This document shows positions 7,637 through 35,505 of a stretch of 64,000 nucleotides of DNA, one piece after another. Position 1 is the stretch's first letter. Each line of letters opens with the position of its first letter. A program made the translations under genes and the position numbers. The DNA comes from Bryobacterales bacterium (GTDB lineage Bacteria > Acidobacteriota > Terriglobia > Bryobacterales > Bryobacteraceae), in contig DAIDIH010000008.1 in NCBI GenBank assembly GCA_027459465.1, positions 1-64,000 of the forward strand, read 5' to 3'. The notes beneath the pieces are model-generated. The model was not told the origin of the DNA. It worked only from the letters and a program-made list of their open reading frames with translations, and searched no databases.

Positions 7637-8623
7637 CTAGCTCTTCACTGCAAGGAGGTAGCGGAATTCCGGCAGTACCGAAAAGGGGCGCGTCGCTGCT
7701 CCCACTTCTTCCGCCAACATCCTGATACGGTCCTCGCGAAGGTTCCCAAGGAAATGGCCCCCCTCGGAGAGATGCCGAACCCGTAGCGGATCAAAGCCCA
7801 TCAGTCGTGCGCAGGTCGCGTCTGCCGCTACAGGATCATCGGCAAGTACAAGCTTGCCCACTTGGCGGGCACTTCCCTGAAGCGGTCCGTTGCCTTCCAT
7901 TGCGGTAATACCGTCTGCGATCACGAAGTGGAGCGGAACGGTCGCACAGATGTCGAGGATGCTTTCGTGAATTCCACTCCAGTGCAGTACATTCTTCGGC
8001 CAGCCGTACTTCATCCCCGGCACAACACCGAACATGTTTTTCAAGCTCAGCGTGACCCCAGCCCAATGATGGGTCTTCACTTTGGGCATTGACACAACGA
8101 AATCGGATTCGAGAACCGCACGCGGCAACCAGAGCTCGCCTAGACCGCTGTAATTGGCTTTCAGCTTCAATCTTTTGAGCTCGTCCCGGTTGAGATCCAC
8201 GAACTCGATCTGCCGTTCCGCGAGATGCGGCTTGAGACCTGCCGCCTGCACTACGAGTTCCGTGTCGCGTTGATGTCCAGGGCCCTCACCGATCACAACC
8301 CGTGTGGCTCCAAGTCGCAGGAAACATCGCGCCGCGGCGCCGATCAGAGTCGAATTCGTGTTCACGGGACCTGGCAGGTCTTCCACCAAATTTGGTTTAA
8401 GAAGAATCGACCGTCCCAGCACGTTTAGCGGGAACAGCCGCAAACCCTCCAGAAGCAGCGCCTCTATCCTCTCCGAGTACTCGGCCGCATTCAGCACCGC
8501 CACAGCCGAATGAGGTCGCCGGTACGAGACAGAGTGCTTCGGCCAAACCCATTCGGTCGTCACCGCTGCTGCCGCGGCCACACCTACTGACGAGCCAAGG
8601 AATCGTCGTCGATCGAGTTTCAT
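7637..8623 (-). CDS. Tat-exported DUF362 protein
   Basis: The 328-residue protein starts MKLDRRRFLGSSVGVAAAAA, a twin-arginine signal (RRRFLG) with a hydrophobic stretch, so it should be exported folded. The body matches DUF362: ILLKPNLVEDLPGPVNTN near the start, a central VVSMPKVKTHHWAGVTLSLK (the conserved PKxKTH element) and IADGITAMEGNGP. DUF362 proteins are often found with iron-sulfur or redox proteins and their reaction is unknown. The C-terminal ferredoxin domain seen in some members is absent. Its start overlaps the end of the upstream gene by four bases (ATGA), so the two are coupled. Confidence 0.85.
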   Translation of the reverse strand: MKLDRRRFLGSSVGVAAAAAVTTEWVWPKHSVSYRRPHSAVAVLNAAEYSERIEALLLEGLRLFPLNVLGRSILLKPNLVEDLPGPVNTNSTLIGAAARCFLRLGATRVVIGEGPGHQRDTELVVQAAGLKPHLAERQIEFVDLNRDELKRLKLKANYSGLGELWLPRAVLESDFVVSMPKVKTHHWAGVTLSLKNMFGVVPGMKYGWPKNVLHWSGIHESILDICATVPLHFVIADGITAMEGNGPLQGSARQVGKLVLADDPVAADATCARLMGFDPLRVRHLSEGGHFLGNLREDRIRMLAEEVGAATRPFSVLPEFRYLLAVKS

Positions 8624-9519
8624 CGCAGCACCTCAAAGGGATGAATCATTTCGCCGCACTTTAGCGCGAGAATCGCGGTGGCGAGAGTTGCATTATTCCG
8701 GATGTCGCTGCCGTCTCCGACGATGGTTGCCAACCTGTTCTTTAGCCCTCCGATAGGCTCTTGGTACACGAACAAGCTGAGAATGCACCAGGCAAGACTG
8801 GAAACAGAATCGACGCTGGCTGCTTTCTGTCGCAGCCATGACAAGCTCTTTTGAATCATTTCGGTTCGCTGTTCGTCCTGGAGAGCCAGCAGCGCGACCG
8901 CTGTCGCCTCAACATGCGGGCGCAGCGGTACTCCGTAAACAACGCTGTTTCCGGAGTTCCACCCTCCGCCAACACATGCGCGGTCCAGAAGCATCTCGAC
9001 GCCCGAATGGATGCGTTTTTCCGATTCCTCGGAGCGATTGCAGACCGTGAACTGCTTGATCGCGATGACGCTGAACGCTGTGGGGATGATCCAGCTTGCA
9101 GAGCCGGAAATCCAGGGCCAGCCATACTTGTCGGGATCGAAGCGAACGTTGCGATCAACTGTTTTGAATTTCCATCGCCACAACCAATGGCCCTCTTGGC
9201 CCTTAGTTCTCAGAAGCCAGGATTCACCTCGTTCTCGGGCTTTTGACGGATCGTTGACTGAATTCAATGCGCAGATGGCAAGGGCCGTTGTCCACGAAGA
9301 CTCCCGGTCACCAACGAAGGATGGCCAACTGCCGTCTGCGAGTTGCACGCCCGACAAAAGCTTGGTCAGCCGCAGAGCCTCAAAAGGCCTCTCCGCCAGC
9401 AGGCAGGGGGTTGCTAAAGACGTAGCTTCCAAACTGACCTGCCGTGAGCCGAAAAAACTCCACCCTCCGCCACGTAGCTCCCGACCGCGCAGTTCCTCAA
9501 GAAGATCAGAGTTGCTCAT
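8620..9519 (-). CDS. Alpha/alpha-toroid (squalene-hopene-cyclase-repeat) protein
   Basis: The 299-residue protein contains repeats of the prenyltransferase/squalene oxidase type: GVQLADGSWPSF, SSWTTALAICAL, GGGWNSGNSVVYG, VEATAVALLAL. Full cyclases are about twice as long and carry a DXDD catalytic motif that I do not see here. This is therefore a short toroid protein whose activity cannot be named. It is coupled by ATGA overlap to the DUF362 gene downstream. No signal peptide is visible, while its partner carries a Tat signal. Confidence 0.65.
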   Translation of the reverse strand: MSNSDLLEELRGRELRGGGWSFFGSRQVSLEATSLATPCLLAERPFEALRLTKLLSGVQLADGSWPSFVGDRESSWTTALAICALNSVNDPSKARERGESWLLRTKGQEGHWLWRWKFKTVDRNVRFDPDKYGWPWISGSASWIIPTAFSVIAIKQFTVCNRSEESEKRIHSGVEMLLDRACVGGGWNSGNSVVYGVPLRPHVEATAVALLALQDEQRTEMIQKSLSWLRQKAASVDSVSSLAWCILSLFVYQEPIGGLKNRLATIVGDGSDIRNNATLATAILALKCGEMIHPFEVLR

Positions 9520-25483: not shown

Positions 25484-25648
25484 TGTGGAATCCGGGCGAA
25501 GGCGAACAGGATTCCGGGGTGAAGGCGAACAGCGTTCCGGGGTGATTCCGAACATGATTCCGGGATGAAGGCGAACAGGATTCCTGGCGGAAGCCGACCA
25601 GTTTTTGGCGCACCCCGGAATGGTGTTCGGCTTGGCCCGGAATGATTT
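25484..25648 (+). repeat. IS21-type multiple terminal repeats, left end
   Basis: About five imperfect copies of ATTCCGGGGTGAAGGCGAAC occur here, the first starting at 25484 (TGTGGAATCCGGGCGAAGGC) and the last ones inverted (GTTCGGCTTGGCCCGGAAT near 25625). IS21 transposases bind such repeats at both ends. The same unit recurs at the right end, 38570-38651. Confidence 0.75.
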
Positions 25649-25732
25649 TCCCAGGTAGCGGCGCTGGACATCAACGCCGGTTAGCGACCATTCCAGAGGG
25701 AGGGCCCATTGCCGGCCAGGAGAATGTCTATG

Positions 25733-25814
25733 TAATGTGCCCGCCGGCGTTATGTGGCCGACCGCGTGGTGAATCCCAGAAGCCGTGGGCCACCCTCCGG
25801 GCGAGGGAACATAA
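25733..25814 (+). repeat. RIT A left terminal inverted repeat with recombinase arm motifs
   Basis: TAATGTG (25733-25739) and TTATGTG (25750-25756) are direct copies 17 bp apart. An inverted copy AACATAA follows at 25808-25814. The same set, inverted, is found at the right end (CACATTA ending 29216, CACATAA 29193-29199, TTATGTT 29133-29139). The first ~45 bp are almost identical between the two ends. RIT B has equivalent motifs at equivalent spacing, so they are probably recombinase binding arms. Confidence 0.75.
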
Positions 25815-25870
25815 CAAGCGGCCCCGCGTGCGATGATCTCCTGAACCTCCCCCATAGAGAGGAGATTTTC

Positions 25871-27130
25871 GTGCTTGACCGCTACTTCATCCGCCCGACG
25901 ACCGTCGATCGGATTCACTCGTCCTGGATCGGTGACGCTATCGAACGGTACGTCAGTTGGCTCGCCGAACAAAACTACGCCGCCCGCAGCATCTTCATCC
26001 GCGTACCGCTGCTGATCCGATTCGGGGAGTCTGCTCAGCGCGCCGGAGCTAAGACGCTGGCGGATCTCCCGGCTTATGTCGAGCCGTTCGTGCATACCTG
26101 GCTGGGGCAGTACGGAAAGCAGCACTCGGAGGTGCAACGCCAGGCTGCAGTGCGGAGCCTCCGTGGTCCTATCCAACAGATGCTTCGCCTCACCGTGCCG
26201 CAGTCGTGCGATTCCGATGCCGGAGTGCCGGACGCATTCGCAAGCATGGTCCCAGGATTCTTCGAGTTGTTACGGCGGGAACGAGGGCTGCGCGAAACGA
26301 CCATTGTCCAGTACCGTCACTATCTTCGGCGCTTCGAGGATTACCTGGGAAGAGTCGATCGGCCATTGCTTCCGGACCTGCCCCCTTCCGTGGTCGCCGA
26401 CTTCATCACGGAAAGTGGTGAAAGCATCGACGCTCGCTCCGTTCAGAGCCTCTGTAGCATTCTCAAGGTCTTTTTCCGCTATCTGTACCGCGCTTCTCTG
26501 CTGCCCCGGGATCTCAGTAAGGCAATCGAGTCACCACGCCGATATCGATTCGCGAACCTGCCGCGCTCGATCTCCTGGGCCGAAGTCGAACGCATGTTGC
26601 AGAGTGTGGACCGGCGGAATGCGGTTGGCCGCCGTGACTACGCGGTCCTCTTGCTCTTGACGACCTATGGGCTGCGCGGGCGGGAGGTCGCAGCCCTGAC
26701 CCTTGACGACATCGATTGGAAACACAATCGACTGCACGTCGGCGGACGCAAGGCGGATCACTCGACAGCATACCCTCTGGCCGCGACGGTAGGCGAGGCG
26801 ATCCTCGATTATTTGAGAAACGGCCGCCCCGAGACGGATCAGCGGGCGGTCTTTTTTGAAGCGTATGCGCCACACGAAGCTCTTACGCGTGTGGCAATCA
26901 CGATGCGCGCCAAACATTACCTACGCAAGGCTGGTATCCGTGTTTTCCGACCCGGCTCGTACACTCTACGGCACGCATGCGTTCAACGCCTTGTCGATGC
27001 GGGACTGTCATTCAAGACGATAGGAGACTTCGTCGGCCACCGGACGCCTGACGCCACCAAGATCTACGCCAAGGTCAATCTGAAGGCGTTGCGCGAGGTC
27101 GCCCTGGGCGACGGCGAGGAGGTTCTGTGA
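25871..27130 (+). CDS. RIT A tyrosine recombinase 1
   Basis: Start GTG 25871 (LDRYFIRPTTVDRIH) was chosen because GAGGAG stands just upstream; the frame extends back into the terminal repeat. The 419-residue protein has a full catalytic domain: R in TTYGLRGREVAAL, HxxR in YTLRHACVQRLVD, GHRTPDATK and the Tyr in IYAKVN. It overlaps the second recombinase gene by four bases (GTGA). In RIT elements the three enzymes are thought to act together in integration. Its counterpart in RIT B is 31611-32834. Confidence 0.85.
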   Translation: MLDRYFIRPTTVDRIHSSWIGDAIERYVSWLAEQNYAARSIFIRVPLLIRFGESAQRAGAKTLADLPAYVEPFVHTWLGQYGKQHSEVQRQAAVRSLRGPIQQMLRLTVPQSCDSDAGVPDAFASMVPGFFELLRRERGLRETTIVQYRHYLRRFEDYLGRVDRPLLPDLPPSVVADFITESGESIDARSVQSLCSILKVFFRYLYRASLLPRDLSKAIESPRRYRFANLPRSISWAEVERMLQSVDRRNAVGRRDYAVLLLLTTYGLRGREVAALTLDDIDWKHNRLHVGGRKADHSTAYPLAATVGEAILDYLRNGRPETDQRAVFFEAYAPHEALTRVAITMRAKHYLRKAGIRVFRPGSYTLRHACVQRLVDAGLSFKTIGDFVGHRTPDATKIYAKVNLKALREVALGDGEEVL

Positions 27131-28113
27131 AAGGCTCACCGAAAGGTCCATTGGCCGATAGCATCGAACGGTACCTGGCGCACAAGCACTCGTTGGGAAA
27201 ACAACTGACGAAAGTGGGCGCCATGCTTCAGTTGCTGGACAGCTACTTGCTTGGCCGTGGCGTTCCGAACGAACGGCAGATTACATCTGCCGACCTCGAA
27301 GCTTTCATCGCCTCACGGCCCCGTCCATCGCCTCGCAGCTACAACGGCTTCGTCGGCGCGATCCGAGGGCTTCTGGATTGGATGGTCGTCCACGAGATCC
27401 TGACAGAGTCGCCCCTGCATTGCGAGAGTCGGCGCGTGACTCCGCTCGCCAAACCGTTTCTTTTTAGCCCGGCTGACGCCCGTCGCCTGCTGGAAGCTGC
27501 CAGCGAACTGCCAAGCAATCCCCGCGCGCAACACCGCGGAGAAGTCTACAGGATAATCTTCGCCGTGTTGTATGGCCTCGGACTTCGTGTCGGAGAAGTG
27601 TCCCGGCTGTGCCGGAAGGACGTCGATTTCGACCGCCAGGTGCTGATCATTCGACAGACGAAGTTCGGGAAGGATCGACTGGTCCCATTCGGACCGAAAA
27701 TGGGATGCGCCCTCAAGGCGTACGCGGAAGGTGAGGAATCGCGGTTTGGACTGATGCCGCCGGACGGAGCCTTTTTCTCGTTCGATCGGCGAAAGCGAAG
27801 GCCGATCGGCACCAACACCATCAGTTGGACGTTCCACAAGCTGCTTCCCGCACTTGAACTGAAAGTCCCGACGGGCGTCAAGCCACCGCATTTGCATTGC
27901 CTTCGGCACTCGTTCGCGGTCGGCACGCTGCTGCGCTGGTACCGCACAGGCGTCGACCCAATGTCGCGGCTTTTTGACCTGTCCACTTTTATGGGTCATG
28001 TCAGCCCCTCTTCCACGGCCGTTTACTTGACCATCACAACCGAACTGCTCGAGTGCGCGGGCATGCGCTTTGCAGCGTTCGCAGAAAGCAGCCGCAAGGA
28101 GTGCAGGCGATGA
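27127..28113 (+). CDS. RIT A tyrosine recombinase 2
   Basis: The 328-residue protein starts with GTG inside a GTGA overlap and ends in an ATGA overlap with the third gene. Catalytic residues are R in GLGLRVGEVSRLC, a Lys in TKFGKDRLVPFG, HxxR in LHCLRHSFAVGTLL, GHVSPSSTA and Tyr in VYLTITT. It is equivalent to the RIT B gene at 30676-31614. The active site looks complete. Confidence 0.85.
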   Translation: MKGSPKGPLADSIERYLAHKHSLGKQLTKVGAMLQLLDSYLLGRGVPNERQITSADLEAFIASRPRPSPRSYNGFVGAIRGLLDWMVVHEILTESPLHCESRRVTPLAKPFLFSPADARRLLEAASELPSNPRAQHRGEVYRIIFAVLYGLGLRVGEVSRLCRKDVDFDRQVLIIRQTKFGKDRLVPFGPKMGCALKAYAEGEESRFGLMPPDGAFFSFDRRKRRPIGTNTISWTFHKLLPALELKVPTGVKPPHLHCLRHSFAVGTLLRWYRTGVDPMSRLFDLSTFMGHVSPSSTAVYLTITTELLECAGMRFAAFAESSRKECRR

Positions 28114-29129
28114 AATCAGACACTCCTCCGCTCGGAGCGATCCTGGAGTCATTCTTTACTGATTACCTCAAGCTTCAGAGGGGACTGCGTCCGAACTCGA
28201 TCAAGAGCTATGCGGACGCATGGCGATTATTCTTGCAGTTTGCGGCTGAGGCCAGCGGGGAGAAAGTGACGCAACTCGGCCTGGATGATCTTCATGCCGG
28301 CGCCGTCGCGGACTTCTTGACCTCCCTGGAAGATCGCCGCCACAACGCGCCGCAATCCCGTAATCAGCGGTTAGCCGCGATTCGGACTTTTTTCACCTAT
28401 GTGGGCCACCGATTCCCGGAGCGACTCGGGCAGGCTCAAAAGGTGACCACAATTCCAAGAAAGCGGGCGCAGTCTCCGGAAACCGTTTTTCTGGAGCGCG
28501 ATGAGATTGACCGCACACTGGCTCGGCTACCGGCACCATCCGGGCTGCGCGATCGTACTCTGTTGCTGTTTCTCTACAACACCGGAGCGCGTGTCCAGGA
28601 GGCAGCCGGTCTCCGCGCCAACGACGTTCACTTCGATCCGAATCCGCGTGTACATCTTCATGGAAAGGGCGATAAGTGGCGCGTGTGTCCTCTATGGACG
28701 GAAACAGCCGCGCTGCTGCAGCAACTGCTCTCTGACCACCCGGCCGGTGCGGCGCCGGATCGGCCGGTCTTCACGAGCCCGCGTCGTACCGCCCTGACCC
28801 GGTTTGGAATCTACAAGATTGTGCGGCGCTACACCGCGGACATTGTCAAAAGAGGATCGGATGGTCGAGCACGTCGTGTGTCGCCGCATACGTGGCGTCA
28901 CTCAACCGCCGTGCACCTGCTCGAAGCCGGCGTCGAGGTCAATGTGATCCGTGCATGGCTGGGGCACGCGAGTCTGGAGACCACGAACCGTTACGCCGAA
29001 ATCACCCTCCGTATGAAGCAAGCCGCCCTCGAAAAGTGCAGCGTGCCCGAGGTCGGAGAAAAGAGAATTCCGCGAACACCTAAATGGCAGAGCGACACAG
29101 CCCTGCTGCACTGGCTCCAATCGCTGTGA
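28110..29129 (+). CDS. RIT A tyrosine recombinase 3
   Basis: Start ATG 28110 (MKSDTPPLGAI) lies in an ATGA overlap with the second gene; an upstream frame exists but is not needed. The 339-residue protein has a SAM-like N-terminal domain (FFTDYLKLQRGLRPNSIKSY). Its catalytic set is R in YNTGARVQEAAGL, HxxR in SPHTWRHSTAVHLLE, GHASLETTNR and Tyr in RYAEIT. It is the most XerC/D-like of the three. Its counterpart in RIT B is 29681-30679. Confidence 0.87.
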   Translation: MKSDTPPLGAILESFFTDYLKLQRGLRPNSIKSYADAWRLFLQFAAEASGEKVTQLGLDDLHAGAVADFLTSLEDRRHNAPQSRNQRLAAIRTFFTYVGHRFPERLGQAQKVTTIPRKRAQSPETVFLERDEIDRTLARLPAPSGLRDRTLLLFLYNTGARVQEAAGLRANDVHFDPNPRVHLHGKGDKWRVCPLWTETAALLQQLLSDHPAGAAPDRPVFTSPRRTALTRFGIYKIVRRYTADIVKRGSDGRARRVSPHTWRHSTAVHLLEAGVEVNVIRAWLGHASLETTNRYAEITLRMKQAALEKCSVPEVGEKRIPRTPKWQSDTALLHWLQSL

Positions 29130-29222
29130 GCGTTATGTTGCCGGCGGGGCGCCAGGCCGCACGCACTTGTCGGGATCCACCACGCGGTCGGCCACATAAC
29201 GCCGGCGGGCACATTACATAGA

Positions 29223-29242
29223 TTATGTTCCCGGGAACATAA
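29223..29242. repeat. 20 bp perfect palindrome at the RIT A right junction
   Basis: TTATGTTCCCGGGAACATAA is its own complement. It extends through the flanking 6 bp on each side (CATAGA and TCTATG) to give a 32 bp palindrome from 29217 to 29248. Each half starts with the TTATGTT arm seen inside the element. The 3' half plus TCTATG forms the junction with istA. The matching site in RIT B is 32971-32990. Confidence 0.8.
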
Positions 29243-29580
29243 TCTATGCGCAAGATCAAGGAAGTCCTACGACTCCGATATGAACTGAAACTCGACCAGC
29301 GGCAGATCGCACGCAGTTGCTCGGTATCGGTCAGCACGGTGCACGAGTGCCTGAAGCGAGCCGAACGATCCAACATCCACTGGCCTCTGCCGGATGGCTG
29401 GGATGAGGCCCGCCTGGAAGCGGCCCTGTATCCGCCGCCGGAGACAAAGCCGAAGCCGGAAAAATCGGTTCCGGACTTTGCCGCAGTCCACGAACAACTC
29501 CGCACGCACCGTCATCTGACGCTGCAGTTGCTCTGGGAGGAGTACCGCGAAGCCAACCCCGACGGCTATCGCTACAGCCG
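29243..29580 (+). pseudogene. istA: istA fragment 1 (N-terminal, helix-turn-helix)
   Basis: From 29246 the frame reads MRKIKEVLRLRYELKLDQRQ, a typical IstA N-terminus with helix-turn-helix (IARSCSVSVSTVHECLKRA). It continues to GYRYSR, where RIT B is inserted after CTA CAGCCG at 29575-29580. The original start codon is now separated at 25724, left of RIT A. IstA is the DDE transposase of IS21 elements; this copy cannot make it. Confidence 0.85.
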
Positions 29581-29662
29581 TTATGTGGCGGCCGCGTTTA
29601 TGTTTTCCTCGAATGCAGGCTCCCGGCGTATTCTGTTTTCGCCTGCGCCCACCGCAACATAA
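29581..29662 (+). repeat. RIT B left terminal inverted repeat with arm motifs
   Basis: TTATGTG (29581-29587) and TTATGTT (29598-29604) are 17 bp apart, as in RIT A. An inverted AACATAA lies at 29656-29662, 75 bp from the end, also as in RIT A. The right end carries the mirror set: CACATAA ending at 32964, AACATAA at 32941-32947 and TTATGTT at 32883-32889. Confidence 0.75.
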
Positions 29663-29680
29663 ATAGGTCGACTGCTGGAC

Positions 29681-30679
29681 CTATAGGCCTTTAAGGAACG
29701 CCATCAACGAAGGCAGACGCGTGCGTCGGGGTTCAGCCCCAGGAAGGCCCTTGATATCAACGCTTGCCAACGCTGTTGCCTTCATCTCCAGATCGACCTC
29801 CGCGTACACGTGAGTTGTGTCGAGCGAAACATGGCCCAGCCACGCACGGATGGTGTTGATGTCCACGCCGGACCGGAGCAGATGGACCGCCGTAGTGTGG
29901 CGAACCGAATGTGGGCTGACGCGCTTGGCGGCCAATGACGGTGCGGACTTCGATGCCAACCTCGCGTAATGAGTGACGAGTCTGTATATGCCGAAGCGGG
30001 TCATGCGTTCGTGCCGTCGTCCAAGGAATACTGGCTCTGTTTCAACGCGACCAGCAACCAACCGCGACAACGCTGAGACTGTCACAGGCCACAGGGGGCA
30101 GAGTCGGTGCTTGTTGCCCTTGCCCAGGATGCGAACGGCCGGCGCTGCTCGCAGGTGCAGATCCCTGATAAGCAATCCTGCGGCTTCGTCGGCTCGCGCG
30201 CCGCTGTTGTAGAGGAACAACAGGATCGCGTAATCGCGATCGCCCAGCTCCGTGCGCCGGTCGGGTGATTTCAGCAATGCCTCCATCTCAGCTCGTTCGA
30301 GGTAGCCGATCAGGTTCTTCGCAGTCTTCTTGAAGGGAATCGCGCGTATCTCCGTCGCCCAGGCGATATGGAGCGGAGAGCGCATCCCAATGAATTTCGC
30401 GAGCGAATGGACGGCTGCAAGCCTGTTATTCCGTGTCACACCACTACATCCACGAACGGACTCCACATGTTCCAGGAATTTGCGTACGATGCCTGGCGTC
30501 AGGTCCTCTACAGTCATCCGATCAATAGCGCAGCCGCTGTGCTTACCGGCAAAGGGCAGCAGCAGCGTAAGCGTGTCACGGTAACTGGCTTGCGTATTGT
30601 GGGAAAGATTGCGCTCGCTGACCAGGTGTTCGAGCAGAAAGCGTCGGACCCACGGCCCCATCAAGGTCTTCTCGCTCAT
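29681..30679 (-). CDS. RIT B tyrosine recombinase 3
   Basis: The 332-residue protein is the last of the minus-strand trio and corresponds to RIT A gene 3. R in YNSGARADEAAGLL, HxxR in SPHSVRHTTAVHLL, GHVSLDTTH and Tyr in VYAEVD are all present. It starts inside the end of gene 2 (ATGA overlap). Similarity to its RIT A counterpart is clear but moderate, so the two RIT elements are different lineages rather than a duplication. Confidence 0.86.
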   Translation of the reverse strand: MSEKTLMGPWVRRFLLEHLVSERNLSHNTQASYRDTLTLLLPFAGKHSGCAIDRMTVEDLTPGIVRKFLEHVESVRGCSGVTRNNRLAAVHSLAKFIGMRSPLHIAWATEIRAIPFKKTAKNLIGYLERAEMEALLKSPDRRTELGDRDYAILLFLYNSGARADEAAGLLIRDLHLRAAPAVRILGKGNKHRLCPLWPVTVSALSRLVAGRVETEPVFLGRRHERMTRFGIYRLVTHYARLASKSAPSLAAKRVSPHSVRHTTAVHLLRSGVDINTIRAWLGHVSLDTTHVYAEVDLEMKATALASVDIKGLPGAEPRRTRLPSLMAFLKGL

Positions 30680-31614
30680 TGACCGCCCTCCGGTTGCGCA
30701 TAGCTGGCGAAGCGTCGGCTGGCTTCTTGCAGAAGATCGGTTGTCATGTGGAGGTAGCGCTGCGTGGACTTAATGTCGATGTGGCCAAGGTACGTCGCTA
30801 GCCGTGGCAACAACCGCTGGACGTCGCGGCCAGCACGGTACCACGCAACAACTCGATGGACCGCAGCCGTGTGGCGAATGTCGTGGATGCGTGGTGGACG
30901 ACAGTCGGCGGCGCAAATGATACCGGCTGCTCGTCGGACATTGTGAAACGACGTGTTCACATGCGGGTAAGGCCAGCCTCGGCCCGTCTTCGTTGTAAAG
31001 AGACGAGAATCGTCGCCCAACGGCAAGGGAAGGTCGCGCCGGCGCTGAATGTAGGCAGCCAGTTGCTGCGTCAGCTTTGGACCGATCGGCACCAGCCGTG
31101 TTTTGAAGAATTTTGTGTGACGAACGGTGACGATCTTGTCGATGAAGTCGATATCGCGCAGGGTCAGGTGAAGGGCCTCGCCGACGCGCAAACCGCTGCC
31201 GTATAGAAGAATCAGCAGCATGCGGAACATGGGCGCTTGAAGAGGGGTGTTGTTAATGTGGAGAACCGATGTGGCATCGAGCAGCCGCCGCAACTCATCG
31301 ACCGAATAGACGTACGGTGATCGCTGGGGTGGCAGCTTCGGCGCGTTGTCAGGCAAGGGTGAACTCTGTGCATAGCCGCGACTGATCGCGAATCTGTAAA
31401 GGCCGGAGAGTATTCTGTATTTCAGCGCCCACGTGGCGCTTAGAGCGCCGCGTCCGCGAAGGAAAGCAGTGACGGCTTCAGCCTGGACATCTTCCATGGG
31501 CGGGTTCCCGATTTCCCGCGAGAACTGCTCAAGCACTCGCCTGGGAGATTCGAAGCTCATCCCCAAAGATGTTTTCAGCGCGACATATGCGTCGATCACC
31601 TCACCGACCCTCAT
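30676..31614 (-). CDS. RIT B tyrosine recombinase 2
   Basis: The 312-residue protein corresponds to RIT A gene 2. Catalytic positions are R in GSGLRVGEALHL, Lys in HTKFFKTRLVPIG, HxxR in IHDIRHTAAVHRV, GHIDIKSTQ and Tyr in RYLHMTT. It overlaps both neighbours by four bases. Confidence 0.85.
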   Translation of the reverse strand: MRVGEVIDAYVALKTSLGMSFESPRRVLEQFSREIGNPPMEDVQAEAVTAFLRGRGALSATWALKYRILSGLYRFAISRGYAQSSPLPDNAPKLPPQRSPYVYSVDELRRLLDATSVLHINNTPLQAPMFRMLLILLYGSGLRVGEALHLTLRDIDFIDKIVTVRHTKFFKTRLVPIGPKLTQQLAAYIQRRRDLPLPLGDDSRLFTTKTGRGWPYPHVNTSFHNVRRAAGIICAADCRPPRIHDIRHTAAVHRVVAWYRAGRDVQRLLPRLATYLGHIDIKSTQRYLHMTTDLLQEASRRFASYAQPEGGQ

Positions 31615-32834
31615 TCCAGGTCCCCCAAATCGAAGTCGGCCACCTCGCGTAGAGCGGAGAGGTCGATCTTGGCGTAGATCCCCGTCGCCCGGGTTGTGCG
31701 GTGACCCAGGTGGTCGCCGATCTCTTTGATACTCAGGCCCTCAGCAAGGAGCCGTGCTGCACAAGCGTGTCGCAACGCGTGTGGTCCGCGGTGCGGCGCC
31801 TGGATGTCTAGGGCCCGGAATCTGTTTCTTACCAGAGCGGACATTGCCCCGGAGGACAACGGACTGTGTGGCGCCAGCAGTCCCAGAAAGACCTCTGGAT
31901 GATCCGCCTTGGGGCGCGCGGAATCGATGTAGCGTGCGACGGCTTCAGCCACCGAGTGCAAAAGCGGATACACCTGAGGTTGCCGGCGCTTCAATCGAAA
32001 TACCCCGACCACGCGCTCGCGCCAGTCGATCTGGTCGAGGCGCAACGATCTCACCTCGCCGCTACGCATACCGTAAACGGCAAGGAGCATCAGGATCGCG
32101 CGATCACGGACGTCCGCCGGCGAATCTCCTCCGGTATGGGCCAGAAGTCGGTGGACGTCCGTCCACGATGGACCTGAGGGCAATGATTCCTGTGCATAAA
32201 GACGTGGTCCCCGGAGTCCTTCAGCAACGCGAGGATGGCACTCGCCGCAGCTCGCCATATATCGCAAGAACACGCGGAGCGCGGCTGCGATGCCCGAGGT
32301 CGAGACGCGAGACCAACGCCGGGCGCCCTCCGTCACGAAGTAGACGTCAAGATCACTTGGATCGAGTGCGGACAATGGTCGATCAGTGTGCTCGAACCAC
32401 TGCAGGAAGTCGCGAATCTTGGACCGCCATTGAACGACAGTTGATGAGCTGAATCCACGTTCATCGCGCATCCAGGCCACATAGCGGTCGAGCTGACCCT
32501 GAAATCGCAATTCAGCCGTCGGCACCCGCCACCATCCCAAGTAGCGAAGCCATGGTCGAGCAACATCAATCAATCGTTGCTCCGTCGTGGCTCCTTTATA
32601 AACCGATCGCCGCTCCCGAGCCAACTCCCGAAGGGCCGAAATATCGATGCCTCGAGATGGGTCCCCTCGAAGATGGGTACAGATCCAGAGCAGTTCGTTG
32701 GCTTTCAGGCGCAACGCGGTATGCGTCGCGCCGTGTTCGGCGCAGTGCTGTAGGTAGCGCTCTCGTTCCTGGGTAAACGGGCCGCCCCGATGTCGGGCAA
32801 GAGCCGACGCGTCGCGAAAGAGTTGTTCAAGCAT
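31611..32834 (-). CDS. RIT B tyrosine recombinase 1
   Basis: The 407-residue protein is the first gene of the trio, corresponding to RIT A gene 1. R in VYGMRSGEVRSL, HxxR in PHALRHACAARLL, GHRTTRATG and Tyr in IYAKID form a complete active site. The ~120-residue N-terminal extension is longer than in many XerC/D proteins, as in RIT A gene 1. Translation starts about 130 bp inside the right terminal repeat. Confidence 0.85.
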   Translation of the reverse strand: MLEQLFRDASALARHRGGPFTQERERYLQHCAEHGATHTALRLKANELLWICTHLRGDPSRGIDISALRELARERRSVYKGATTEQRLIDVARPWLRYLGWWRVPTAELRFQGQLDRYVAWMRDERGFSSSTVVQWRSKIRDFLQWFEHTDRPLSALDPSDLDVYFVTEGARRWSRVSTSGIAAALRVFLRYMASCGECHPRVAEGLRGPRLYAQESLPSGPSWTDVHRLLAHTGGDSPADVRDRAILMLLAVYGMRSGEVRSLRLDQIDWRERVVGVFRLKRRQPQVYPLLHSVAEAVARYIDSARPKADHPEVFLGLLAPHSPLSSGAMSALVRNRFRALDIQAPHRGPHALRHACAARLLAEGLSIKEIGDHLGHRTTRATGIYAKIDLSALREVADFDLGDLE

Positions 32835-32970
32835 AGCGGACTACTCTATTGGGGCATGCCGTCCGCGAAATCCGAATGACTATTATGTTGCGTCTACGTC
32901 ACCGCTGCGCGCGTCAGCCATGGCATTGAAATGATTGCGCAACATAAACGCGGCCGCCACATAACGGCTG

Positions 32971-32990
32971 TCATGTGTTGCAGCACATGA
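32971..32990. repeat. 20 bp palindrome at the RIT B right junction
   Basis: TCATGTGTTGCAGCACATGA is palindromic except for one base pair at the sides of the central TGCA. It is flanked by CGGCTG (32965-32970) and CTCGCG (32991-32996). It holds exactly the position of the 20 bp palindrome in RIT A, although the recombinase genes point the other way. Confidence 0.78.
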
Positions 32991-32996
32991 CTCGCG

Positions 32997-33410
32997 GTTC
33001 TGCGAGTTATACCAGCGCTGGCGCAGGAAACTCGACGTGGTGATGCGGCAGGAGCACAAGGCCGGCGAGAAAGCCTTCATCGACTGGGCCGGCTCGACGA
33101 TCCCCATTCACGATCGCGCCAGCGGTGCGGTAAGACAGGCGTCTCTGTTCGTGGCCGCGCTCGGGGCCAGTTCCTACACCTGGGCCGAGGCTACGGCGGA
33201 CCAACAGATGGAATCGTGGCTGCGCGCGCACATGCACGCCTTCGAGTTCTGGGGCGGGGTTCCGGCGCTGACGGTGCCCGATAACACCAAGACCGGAGTG
33301 AGCAAAGCGCATCGCTACGATCCGGACTTGAACCCGACTTACTACAACTTCGCCGTGCATTACGGCTTCGGTGTGGTGCCGGCGCGGCCGTATAAACCTC
33401 GGGATAAGGC
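32997..33410 (+). pseudogene. istA: istA fragment 2 (DDE core, first part)
   Basis: The frame continues from RIT B with [20 protein letters not shown], then [17 protein letters not shown] (first catalytic Asp) and [19 protein letters not shown] (second Asp). It ends at KPRDKA, where the serine-recombinase element enters within AAGGC at 33406-33410. After that the frame runs into unrelated sequence and stops at 33435. Confidence 0.86.
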
Positions 33411-33417
33411 TTTGAAC

Positions 33418-35505
33418 TCATACTGCACCTCGTGAAGAATGTACTAATGAACTTGCAGGCTCGGCCTGGTATTCACCCTTATGAGCGTACTTCGCGGGCA
33501 GGTCTTCCGGCGGGATTTCGTAGAGATAGTTGCCGCGGTCGTCGGTGGGATGCGCGCGAAGCAGACCGCGCCGGCGCCAGAGGTGGACGGTGGACAGCAC
33601 GACGCCATACCGGTCGGCCACATCTTGCGGTGGCAGAAGCCCCTGGGCGAGCAGGCGTGTACGCCGATCGGTGAGGTGATAGATCGTTCGCAGCCCGCCG
33701 ATACGCGCGCCCGTCCACGGCGTTGTGACGACGGTGCGCACGCCGCGCTCATTGAGTACATCCGCGATTTCTCCGTCCGTATACGTATCGATGAGCCGGT
33801 CGATTTCCTTGACTACTTCGGCATCGGTAGTGCGCAGCTCCACACATGATTTCGGCAGAGGTAAATCGAGCGACCGCGTCGCGCCGCCGGCAAAGCGAAT
33901 ATCAACATGGAGTGCATCGCCTTTTGTGAGCGTGACATCTTCGATCAATAGCCGAAGCATTCGCTTCTTTTCCTTCATCTGCGTTCGCGGATCGCGCCAG
34001 AGACGTGGGAAATCGGTGGCGAGCGCCATCAGTTCTCCACGTTCGGCGTCGCTCACAATGTTCGCATCGGCGGCCTTTGCTTTCTCGTACGCTTCCTGTG
34101 CCGCGGCGAGGGAGCGCAATTTTTCGTTCCAATCCGCCTCCAACGCGTCGGCCACCAGGCGATTGTCGGGATCGACCTTGAGGAACCGACGCTGCGCAAG
34201 GTCGGCTTCATAGCGCGCACGCTCCACGTGTTGGTGTCGCAACCGATCGGCTTCCTCATGGCGGGTCGCCAGTTCTTGCTGCACCGTCAGCGCGACCTCG
34301 ATGGCCAGAGGCGTCATCGCCTCGATGACGATCTCGCCGATAGCTCGATCGAGGACGCCACCATGCACGGTTTGACACATGCCACTTTCGCCCCGCTGTA
34401 ATGGGCGTCGTCCGCACCAGTAGGTAGGTACGCTTTGATTGCGGTGCGAGTGGTAGCGGACCGACATCCTTTCACCGCAGGTTCCGCAGATCACAAGTCC
34501 CTGCAGTAGCGCCGTACCTTCGCGTGCTGGCCCACGGCGCCGCTCGGGGCTCCAAGAGACCGCATTGTGCTTCACGCGCTGGCGGTTCGATTGGTACTCC
34601 TCCCAGGTAATATAGGCGGGATGCATGTCGCGCAGCAGAATCCATTCCTCGCTTGGCACCAGCCGCGAGCACACCTTACCATTAGGCAGACGGCGCTGTT
34701 TGGTGCGACCGAAGACGAAGGCGCCGGCATAACGCGGGTTGTGGATGATCTGGCGCGCACGGCAGTGCAGCAACTCGGCCCAGACCAGTTCGCCCTTGTG
34801 TACACCGCTGCGCAACCGGCGAGGGAACAGGAGCCCCTTCGCGTGGAACTCCTTGACCACTGCCAGGCAGGACCCGGTCCGCTGGAAGATCTCGAAAAAC
34901 AGACGCACGGAGGCCTGCACCTGGGCGTCCGGATCGAGGATGACACGATCCTGCGCATCGTGCACGAAGCCGACGGGCACCATCTGTTTGAGCTCCCCGC
35001 GGCGGGCACGGCTCAGGATGCCGCCGCGCAGTCGTGCCTTGAGCACATGGAGTTCCGCTTCACTCATGGTGCCCTTCAGCCCCAACAACAAACGATCGTT
35101 AAAGTGCGCGGGATCGTATAGACCGTCTTCATCGAGGATGAGCGTGTCGGCGAGCGCGCACAGTTCCAGCAGCCGATGCCAATCCGTGGAGTTGCGCGCC
35201 AAGCGCGATACTTCCAGGCCGAGTACGATTCCGACGCGACCCAGACCGACTTCGGTCACCAGACGCTGGAAGCCTTCTCGATCGGCCGCGCTGGCGCCGG
35301 ACTGTCCAAGATCGCTGTCGATCACGATGATCCGATCCAGCGGCCAGCCCAGCGCCACAGCGCGCTCCCTCAGCGCATACTGGCGGTGCGTGCTCTCGGT
35401 GTTCTCGAAGACCTGGCGCAGCGTTGACTGGCGGACATATAGGTATGCCAGCCGCGATAGATGCGCGGTCGTGACCTTCTGATGAGCCTCGCTATCCATT
35501 ACCAT
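33418..35505 (-). CDS. Large serine recombinase
   Basis: The chosen start is ATG 35505 ([11 protein letters not shown]), 10 bases after GGAGG. ATG codons at 35514 and 35499 are alternatives, the last in a TAATG overlap with the upstream stop. The ~695-residue protein has a resolvase domain with the catalytic Ser in YVRQSTLRQ. It also has [30 protein letters not shown], a recombinase domain ([13 protein letters not shown]) and a zinc-ribbon domain (ICGTCGERM, and a later WCGRRP). A C-terminal helix-turn-helix ([20 protein letters not shown]) is unusual and might recognise the ends. Confidence 0.9.

Follow-up and report, generated by a model that had tools for sequence, protein, structure and literature searches.

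The window analysed here, 64,000 nucleotides of contig DAIDIH010000008.1 from a Bryobacterales bacterium (assembly GCA_027459465.1, positions 1 to 64,000), contains two recombinase-in-trio (RIT) elements, RIT A and RIT B, which are inserted into the same IS21-family gene, RIT A at the istA start codon and RIT B at the istA Y-S-R codons. Comparison with other RITs indicates that the mobile form of these elements is, in all likelihood, a circle with two recombination cores at its joint, each of which pairs with the target in one polarity only and uses a 6-bp overlap; this model best explains the observations reported below. The comparison comprised approximately 173 RIT trios, which came from genomes related to that of the window, from 80 loci in named genomes, from plasmids and from further searches by phylum and family (loci and genomes are given with our L and G numbers).

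In the proposed mobile form, the joint of the circle would read TIR_C, 6-mer s_C, a 20-bp palindrome (P), 6-mer s_A and TIR_A, where TIR denotes the terminal inverted repeat on the ritC or ritA side. This joint would constitute two inverted dif-like cores, TIR_C-s_C-P and P-s_A-TIR_A, with P common to both. Either core could pair with a target X-t-Y, in which t is 6 bp long, and pairing in a single polarity would let X replace the TIR half and Y replace the P half, so that P always ends up beside X and a TIR beside Y, with the gene orientation set by the core that was used. The 6 bp would represent the crossover overlap, for which a match to the target would not be required. Mismatched 6-mers might be sorted either way, s remaining with P and t lying beside the TIR or the reverse, and elements would thereby acquire and carry 6-mers of earlier targets. 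Furthermore, the inner core (P-s-TIR) would remain active after insertion and could invert P or, with a second target, generate a bare X1-s-P-s-X2 scar, presumably together with a palindrome-less Y1-RIT-Y2 product. Sequence comparison directly supports the anatomy, the target polarity, the empty sites, the carried 6-mers, the inversion of the palindrome and the bare scars, and from these we infer the circle, the action of the three Rit proteins and the pairing of individual proteins with individual arms.

A palindrome in fixed register with the element ends

For a blind set of 88 RITs (176 ends), ends were picked from the inverted repeat and its arms while ignoring the palindrome, and offsets of 20 to 74 outside the tip were then scanned for 20-bp palindromes with at least 8 of 10 pairs. 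Where the cargo was long or an element lay at the edge of a contig (e.g., the Escherichia coli elements), the inverted repeat alone was insufficient and the ends were annotated by motif. A palindrome begins exactly 26 bp outside the tip in 62 of the 176 ends, compared to 0-3 ends for every other offset. The 8-bp arm identity reaches 6.57/8 at a spacing of 17 bp versus about 1.2-3.2 at other spacings, and an inverted third arm is located 75-79 bp inside the tip in 49 of 72 elements. The offset-26 palindrome and the 17-bp arm spacing, both noted in the initial annotation for the two window copies, are thus general features of RIT ends. The arms of the TIRs and the two arms of the palindrome have the consensus TTATGTnGCG in common, and, as in Xer/dif sites, two inverted arms flank a 6-bp centre. 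In some RITs (L205, L200, L049, L066 and L094) the palindrome lies 1-2 bp or more off the 6-bp register, suggesting other spacer lengths in some subfamilies.

The side of the palindrome is set by the target

Of 72 non-redundant elements with a palindrome on one side, 41 have it next to ritA and 31 next to ritC. The palindrome might be a fixed part of one long asymmetric terminus, its side following gene orientation, as single copies have it on one side only and it moves with the element. However, this is hardly credible given the mixed distribution, and it is refuted by near-identical copies within the same genome that differ in palindrome side (L042/L043, the copies of E. coli WP4-S18-ESBL-07, and L174/L176).

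When the flanks were joined X-to-Y, with X defined as the palindrome side, and targets were compared via six-frame translation, 138 homologous-target pairs were obtained, of which 125 align within one codon of the junction. The palindrome lies on the same side of the target in all 125 junction-aligned pairs, 63 of which join opposite gene orientations; these pairs are not mutually independent, while the target groups are. Two flipped pairs, offset by at least 17 codons, both include L105, a poorly annotated locus with ill-defined ends. Both gene orientations were found within each of eight target groups, including those at the istA Y-S-R-F and D-N motifs, the IS66 D-G-x-x-G-Y motif, the GK motif of tyrosine recombinases and the D-P-F motif of DNA methyltransferases. 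The initial annotation had proposed that either crossover point can be used, which agrees with the opposite-orientation copies in identical targets, but which side the palindrome occupies is dictated by the target, regardless of the direction of the genes.

Many RIT targets are codons of conserved or catalytic motifs (named by eye) in enzymes of other mobile elements. Motifs hit include RadC HNHPSG, IstA D-N, GKxxKDR of a tyrosine recombinase, a serine recombinase, an ISL3-like Y-D-K and methyltransferase D-P-F (loci L224, L178, L143, L117, L145 and L159), a choice that resembles that of inteins and homing elements. Some RITs lie inside or are stacked next to other RITs (L044, L062 and L064), one of them within a RitB-like GK-R motif.

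Slightly asymmetric palindromes allow their direction to be followed. In the frame of the circle this direction is constant between the opposite-orientation sisters L042/L043, L089/L090, L142/L143 and L149/L214, and likewise among L174-L176 and the four WP4-S18-ESBL-07 copies, which argues for a single circle TIR_C–6–P–6–TIR_A integrated through either core. In a minority of cases the palindrome is inverted (L108/L110, L126/L127 and L169/L170 versus the WP4-S18-ESBL-07 copies), which would fit recombination between the two cores.

The main role of the one-sided palindrome and its long inverted repeat could also be that of a terminator or regulatory hairpin shielding the element from outside transcription, and a 32-bp inverted repeat at the element border would suit such a role. 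This function can be all but dismissed as the main one, since the palindrome is one-sided and set by target polarity, its arms have the same sequence as the TIR arms, and it keeps an exact 26-bp register.

Empty sites and natural copies in Escherichia coli

E. coli harbors a 3.9-kb RIT with one cargo open reading frame, the copies of which are 99-100% identical and occupy chromosomal yhdJ as well as plasmid-borne DNA-methyltransferase genes. Strain WP4-S18-ESBL-07 contains copies on the chromosome and on three plasmids, strain 550 on the chromosome and a plasmid, and AR_0017 on the chromosome; a full copy was identified in 3 of 5,426 E. coli genomes. These copies occur in both orientations, with the palindrome always upstream of D-P-F. 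The plasmid methyltransferase gene L168 represents an empty site that is contiguous at the insertion point, and a 73-bp empty yhdJ site was matched in 5,341 of the 5,426 genomes. As both empty sites are uninterrupted, neither the palindrome nor the second 6-mer belongs to the target. A scenario in which the palindrome belongs to the target and RITs insert next to pre-existing palindromes would account for the constant palindrome side relative to the target, yet it is refuted by these empty targets without a palindrome (L168, and yhdJ in thousands of genomes), and the sequence of the palindrome tracks the element and not the target, making this scenario extremely improbable. Searches for empty copies of the G041 target and for a close empty relative of the Salmonella plasmid RIT L160 retrieved none.

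The cargo of the E. coli RIT is a 576-bp open reading frame for a hypothetical protein, located between ritC and the element end (L159, positions 8209-8784, and sister copies); the window RITs carry no cargo. The RIT copies L169, L170 and their relatives have been partly replaced by IS903B with retention of the TIR and palindrome.

Exchange of 6-mers between element and target

Outer, inner and TIR-side 6-mers were compared for 71 elements. All three are equal in 25 and all different in 16, while only outer and inner agree in 12, only inner and TIR-side in seven, and only outer and TIR-side in 11. Chance equality of 6-mers between elements is 0.6%, and equality within elements is far more common. 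In 32 of the 71 elements, the 6-mer adjoining one TIR is the exact inverse of that adjoining the other. The fully symmetrical circular site with two crossover points that had been envisaged for the window copies is therefore retained in part: target pairs, 6-mers and bare palindromes all point to two dif-like crossover points, but the symmetry is exact only in these 32 elements.

The yhdJ copy of strain 550 (L163) reads X-GACCTG-P-CGGGTC-TIR_C...TIR_A-GACCCG-Y. Its empty site was matched perfectly with GACCCG in 400 genomes and with GACCTG in none, and GACCTG is the inner 6-mer of L159, the plasmid copy in the same strain. In L163 the 6-mer of the element was thus kept by the palindrome and that of the target placed beside the TIR. 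GACCTG is also the natural 6-mer at the equivalent V-L-D-L-F site of IS911 (GTTGTTCTC-GACCTG-TTC), where it was probably acquired by the E. coli RIT. Genome G387 contains three copies, L174, L175 and L176, that are compatible with a single circle in which s_C is GGAGGG and s_A is CACGTC. In relatives, seven empty homologues could be read; they have GAGAGG, GGGAGG or AAGAGG and never GGAGGG, so that the target 6-mer would lie beside the TIR in L174 but beside the palindrome in L175. It thus appears that either outcome can occur, as expected if a mismatched 6-bp overlap is sorted after strand exchange. A strict rule by which the TIR keeps its 6-mer fits L039-L041 and L089/L090 and was ruled out by L163, and the strict opposite rule is weakened by L175.

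Strand-biased copy-out as in SE elements or Tn554, where only one strand is exchanged, the circle receives a copy of the 6-mer adjoining one end and the target 6-mer invariably comes to lie at this end, offers a different and rather unlikely route to such patterns. The 6-mer rule described for SE elements (PMC10214605) is obeyed by L163, L174 and the 12 elements in which outer and inner 6-mers agree and differ from the TIR-side 6-mer. However, L175 fits the opposite resolution, as do, read simply, the seven elements in which the inner 6-mer equals the TIR-side but not the outer one; a strand bias would therefore be at most partial, and copy-out alone leaves the existence of two cores unexplained. 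Folded single-strand recombination, as in integron attC sites or CTX phage, is less probable still: the joint would form a hairpin whose stem rebuilds one core. TIR-s-P-s-TIR indeed constitutes a single long inverted repeat, with exactly complementary s 6-mers in ~45% of elements, but the s pair is mismatched in more than half of them, P lacks an unpaired loop, and P inversion and X1-P-X2 scars come naturally to double-stranded cores.

Bare palindromes and elements without a palindrome

A 32-bp query retrieved 13 E. coli records, five of which adjoin an IS3-family gene; four of these five were read. In these plasmids (L249, L250, L252 and L253), an IS911 half is followed by GACCCG-P-CGGGTC and a methyltransferase half, with no RIT in between. 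In L249, the one plasmid measured, the IS911 part matches an intact copy without a difference over 480 bp, ending precisely at the X edge. Such bare-palindrome scars would be predicted if recombination also takes place at the inner core. Palindrome-less RITs with flanks that could be identified (L046, L062, L064, L093, L107, L113 and L134) are flanked by two Y-type target halves, assigned by eye, and hence look like reciprocal products and not counter-examples. Palindromes on both sides were identified in L061, L121, L152, L179 and L129, of which those on short contigs may be assembly artefacts.

Several observations weigh against the double-core circle. About 30% of the RITs in the blind set have no palindrome at offset 26, a class that the initial annotation had regarded as potentially fatal to the layout; although such RITs exist, some of them have the palindrome out of register and those with identifiable flanks look like reciprocal products (typed by eye), but a few, e.g. 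L052, L054, L057 and L154, are unexplained. Homologous recombination between inverted copies is another possible source of Y-RIT-Y arrangements and of palindromes on both sides. All five scar plasmids may go back to a single event, and E. coli yielded no Y1-RIT-Y2 partner for the bare scars. Evidence for both 6-mer resolutions comes chiefly from one genome and one E. coli strain. Moreover, no circle junction has been observed, and none was found in one pattern scan of viral contigs.

Relation to described elements

Although RITs were recognised in 2009 and occur in many phyla, their mobility has been called undemonstrated and their need for three recombinases hard to understand (PMC3414803). 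Like the RITs described previously (Van Houdt 2009/2012), the elements analysed here combine overlapping ritA, ritB and ritC tyrosine-recombinase genes with inverted repeats, are ~3.4-3.9 kb long and have transposase and radC genes among their targets. A palindromic sequence that overlaps an inverted repeat of 28-9 bp was mentioned in 2012, so the existence of the palindrome is not new; the same study reported no convincing binding-site layout for RITs (PMC3414803), and RITs were later listed as untested for target specificity, empty site and movement (PMC10214605). In the RIT literature covered, which excludes Ricker 2013, we did not find the register, the two cores, the target polarity, the 6-mer carry-over or the bare-palindrome scars. 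We therefore lean, with some reserve, towards a previously undescribed attachment-site architecture: a palindromic module shared between two inverted tyrosine-recombinase cores that would permit two-way insertion with target-fixed polarity, in which the palindrome can be inverted or left behind as a two-target scar and the 6-mers record past targets, mostly conserved or catalytic-motif codons of enzymes of other mobile elements.

Several systems share parts of this architecture. Xer/dif sites also have short inverted arms around a 6-bp overlap, and XerC/XerD are the best, albeit below-cut-off, matches of Rit proteins. RITs differ in having two cores on one palindrome, 6-mers that may mismatch and three recombinases, and in carrying their recombinase genes on the element in contrast to housekeeping XerC/XerD acting at a chromosomal dif. 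With Tn916/Tn1549 and CTnDOT, RITs share a crossover of about 6 bp that proceeds without full homology and carries flank 6-mers along, as well as, by inference, a circle; in those elements the crossover is 5-7 bp, flank-derived and requires little or no homology (PMC5871717), a documented precedent for the overlap proposed here. They have one joint crossover, one integrase, no central palindrome and an orientation unlinked to a second core. SE elements, GInts and Tn554 likewise use several tyrosine recombinases and carry a 6-bp footprint from the old to the new site (PMC10214605, PMC5385486), and SE elements and Tn554 provide a precedent for the 6-mer carry-over (PMC10214605). In contrast to RITs, they have one joint 6-mer, a strand bias, no palindrome module and other genes.

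The model offers a concrete, testable reaction scheme in which two cores comprise four core arms, with three 6-bp spacers and one target polarity. E. coli, in which the unoccupied yhdJ site is known, provides natural systems for this scheme. Sharing of the palindrome also suggests why several recombinases are encoded, as distinct proteins may occupy TIR and palindrome arms. RitA reportedly possesses two core-binding domains and RitC an additional helix at its C terminus (PMC8138268), and RitA might bind the 17-bp tandem arms. A tolerant 6-bp crossover combined with target polarity could be of interest to recombinase engineers.

RIT elements of the window

Both window copies encode ritA, ritB and ritC in this order on one strand with 4-bp overlaps, bracketed by terminal inverted repeats, with no other gene, such as the accessory srap and ginD genes of SE elements and GInts, between the ends. 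Compared to more than 100 RIT-like trios, the Rit proteins are mutually homologous and in fixed order, and their best NCBIfam models are XerC/XerD, with scores under the cut-offs. The arms, their 17-bp spacing, the inverted AACATAA, the 6-mers and the 20-bp palindromes given in the initial annotation were each located by direct reading. Its placement of the palindrome after the third gene in RIT A and before the first in RIT B is borne out by the gene strands: with RIT A genes on the plus and RIT B genes on the minus strand, the palindrome lies on the ritC side in RIT A and on the ritA side in RIT B.

RIT A begins with the plus-strand TIR-side 6-mer TCTATG (25727-25732), which is the inverse of the inner and the same as the outer 6-mer. 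The left TIR (25733-25756, plus strand) contains direct arms TAATGTG (25733) and TTATGTG (25750), spaced by 17 bp, and a third, inverted arm AACATAA (25808-25814, minus strand) lies 75 bp from the tip. The plus-strand tyrosine-recombinase genes ritA (25871-27130), ritB (27127-28113) and ritC (28110-29129) are followed by the third arm of the right end, TTATGTT (29133-29139, plus strand), 77 bp from the tip, and the right TIR (29193-29216, minus strand) with arms CACATAA and CACATTA, again spaced by 17 bp. Adjacent to it are the inner 6-mer CATAGA (29217-29222, plus strand), the perfect palindrome TTATGTTCCCGGGAACATAA (29223-29242, no strand) and the outer 6-mer TCTATG (29243-29248, plus strand), which contains the istA start codon. 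The 5' part of istA (29246-29580, plus strand), the target for both RITs, extends to RIT B, and the joined frame is open.

RIT B is preceded by its plus-strand TIR-side 6-mer CAGCCG (29575-29580). Its left TIR, on the ritC side (29581-29604, plus strand), contains arms TTATGTG (29581) and TTATGTT (29598) with 17-bp spacing, followed by an inverted third arm AACATAA (29656-29662, minus strand), which lies 75 bp from the tip at the left and right ends alike. The tyrosine-recombinase genes ritC (29681-30679), ritB (30676-31614) and ritA (31611-32834) are all on the minus strand. The right TIR, on the ritA side (32941-32964, minus strand), adjoins the inner 6-mer CGGCTG (32965-32970, plus strand), the palindrome TCATGTGTTGCAGCACATGA with 9 of 10 pairs (32971-32990, no strand) and the outer 6-mer CTCGCG (32991-32996, plus strand), beyond which the 3' part of istA continues (32997-33417, plus strand). 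The 6-mers bordering RIT B, CAGCCG and CTCGCG, each encode Y-S-R in the istA frame, and an open istA frame is regained when RIT B and its 26 bp are deleted in silico.

Two different RITs thus split a single istA (29243-33435), one at the start codon and the other at Y-S-R-F, and the gene is also cut at its 3' end, near 33417. Left of RIT A, imperfect direct repeats around GGCGAACAGG/ATTCCGGGGTGA (25490-25650) possibly represent a repeated IS21 terminus.

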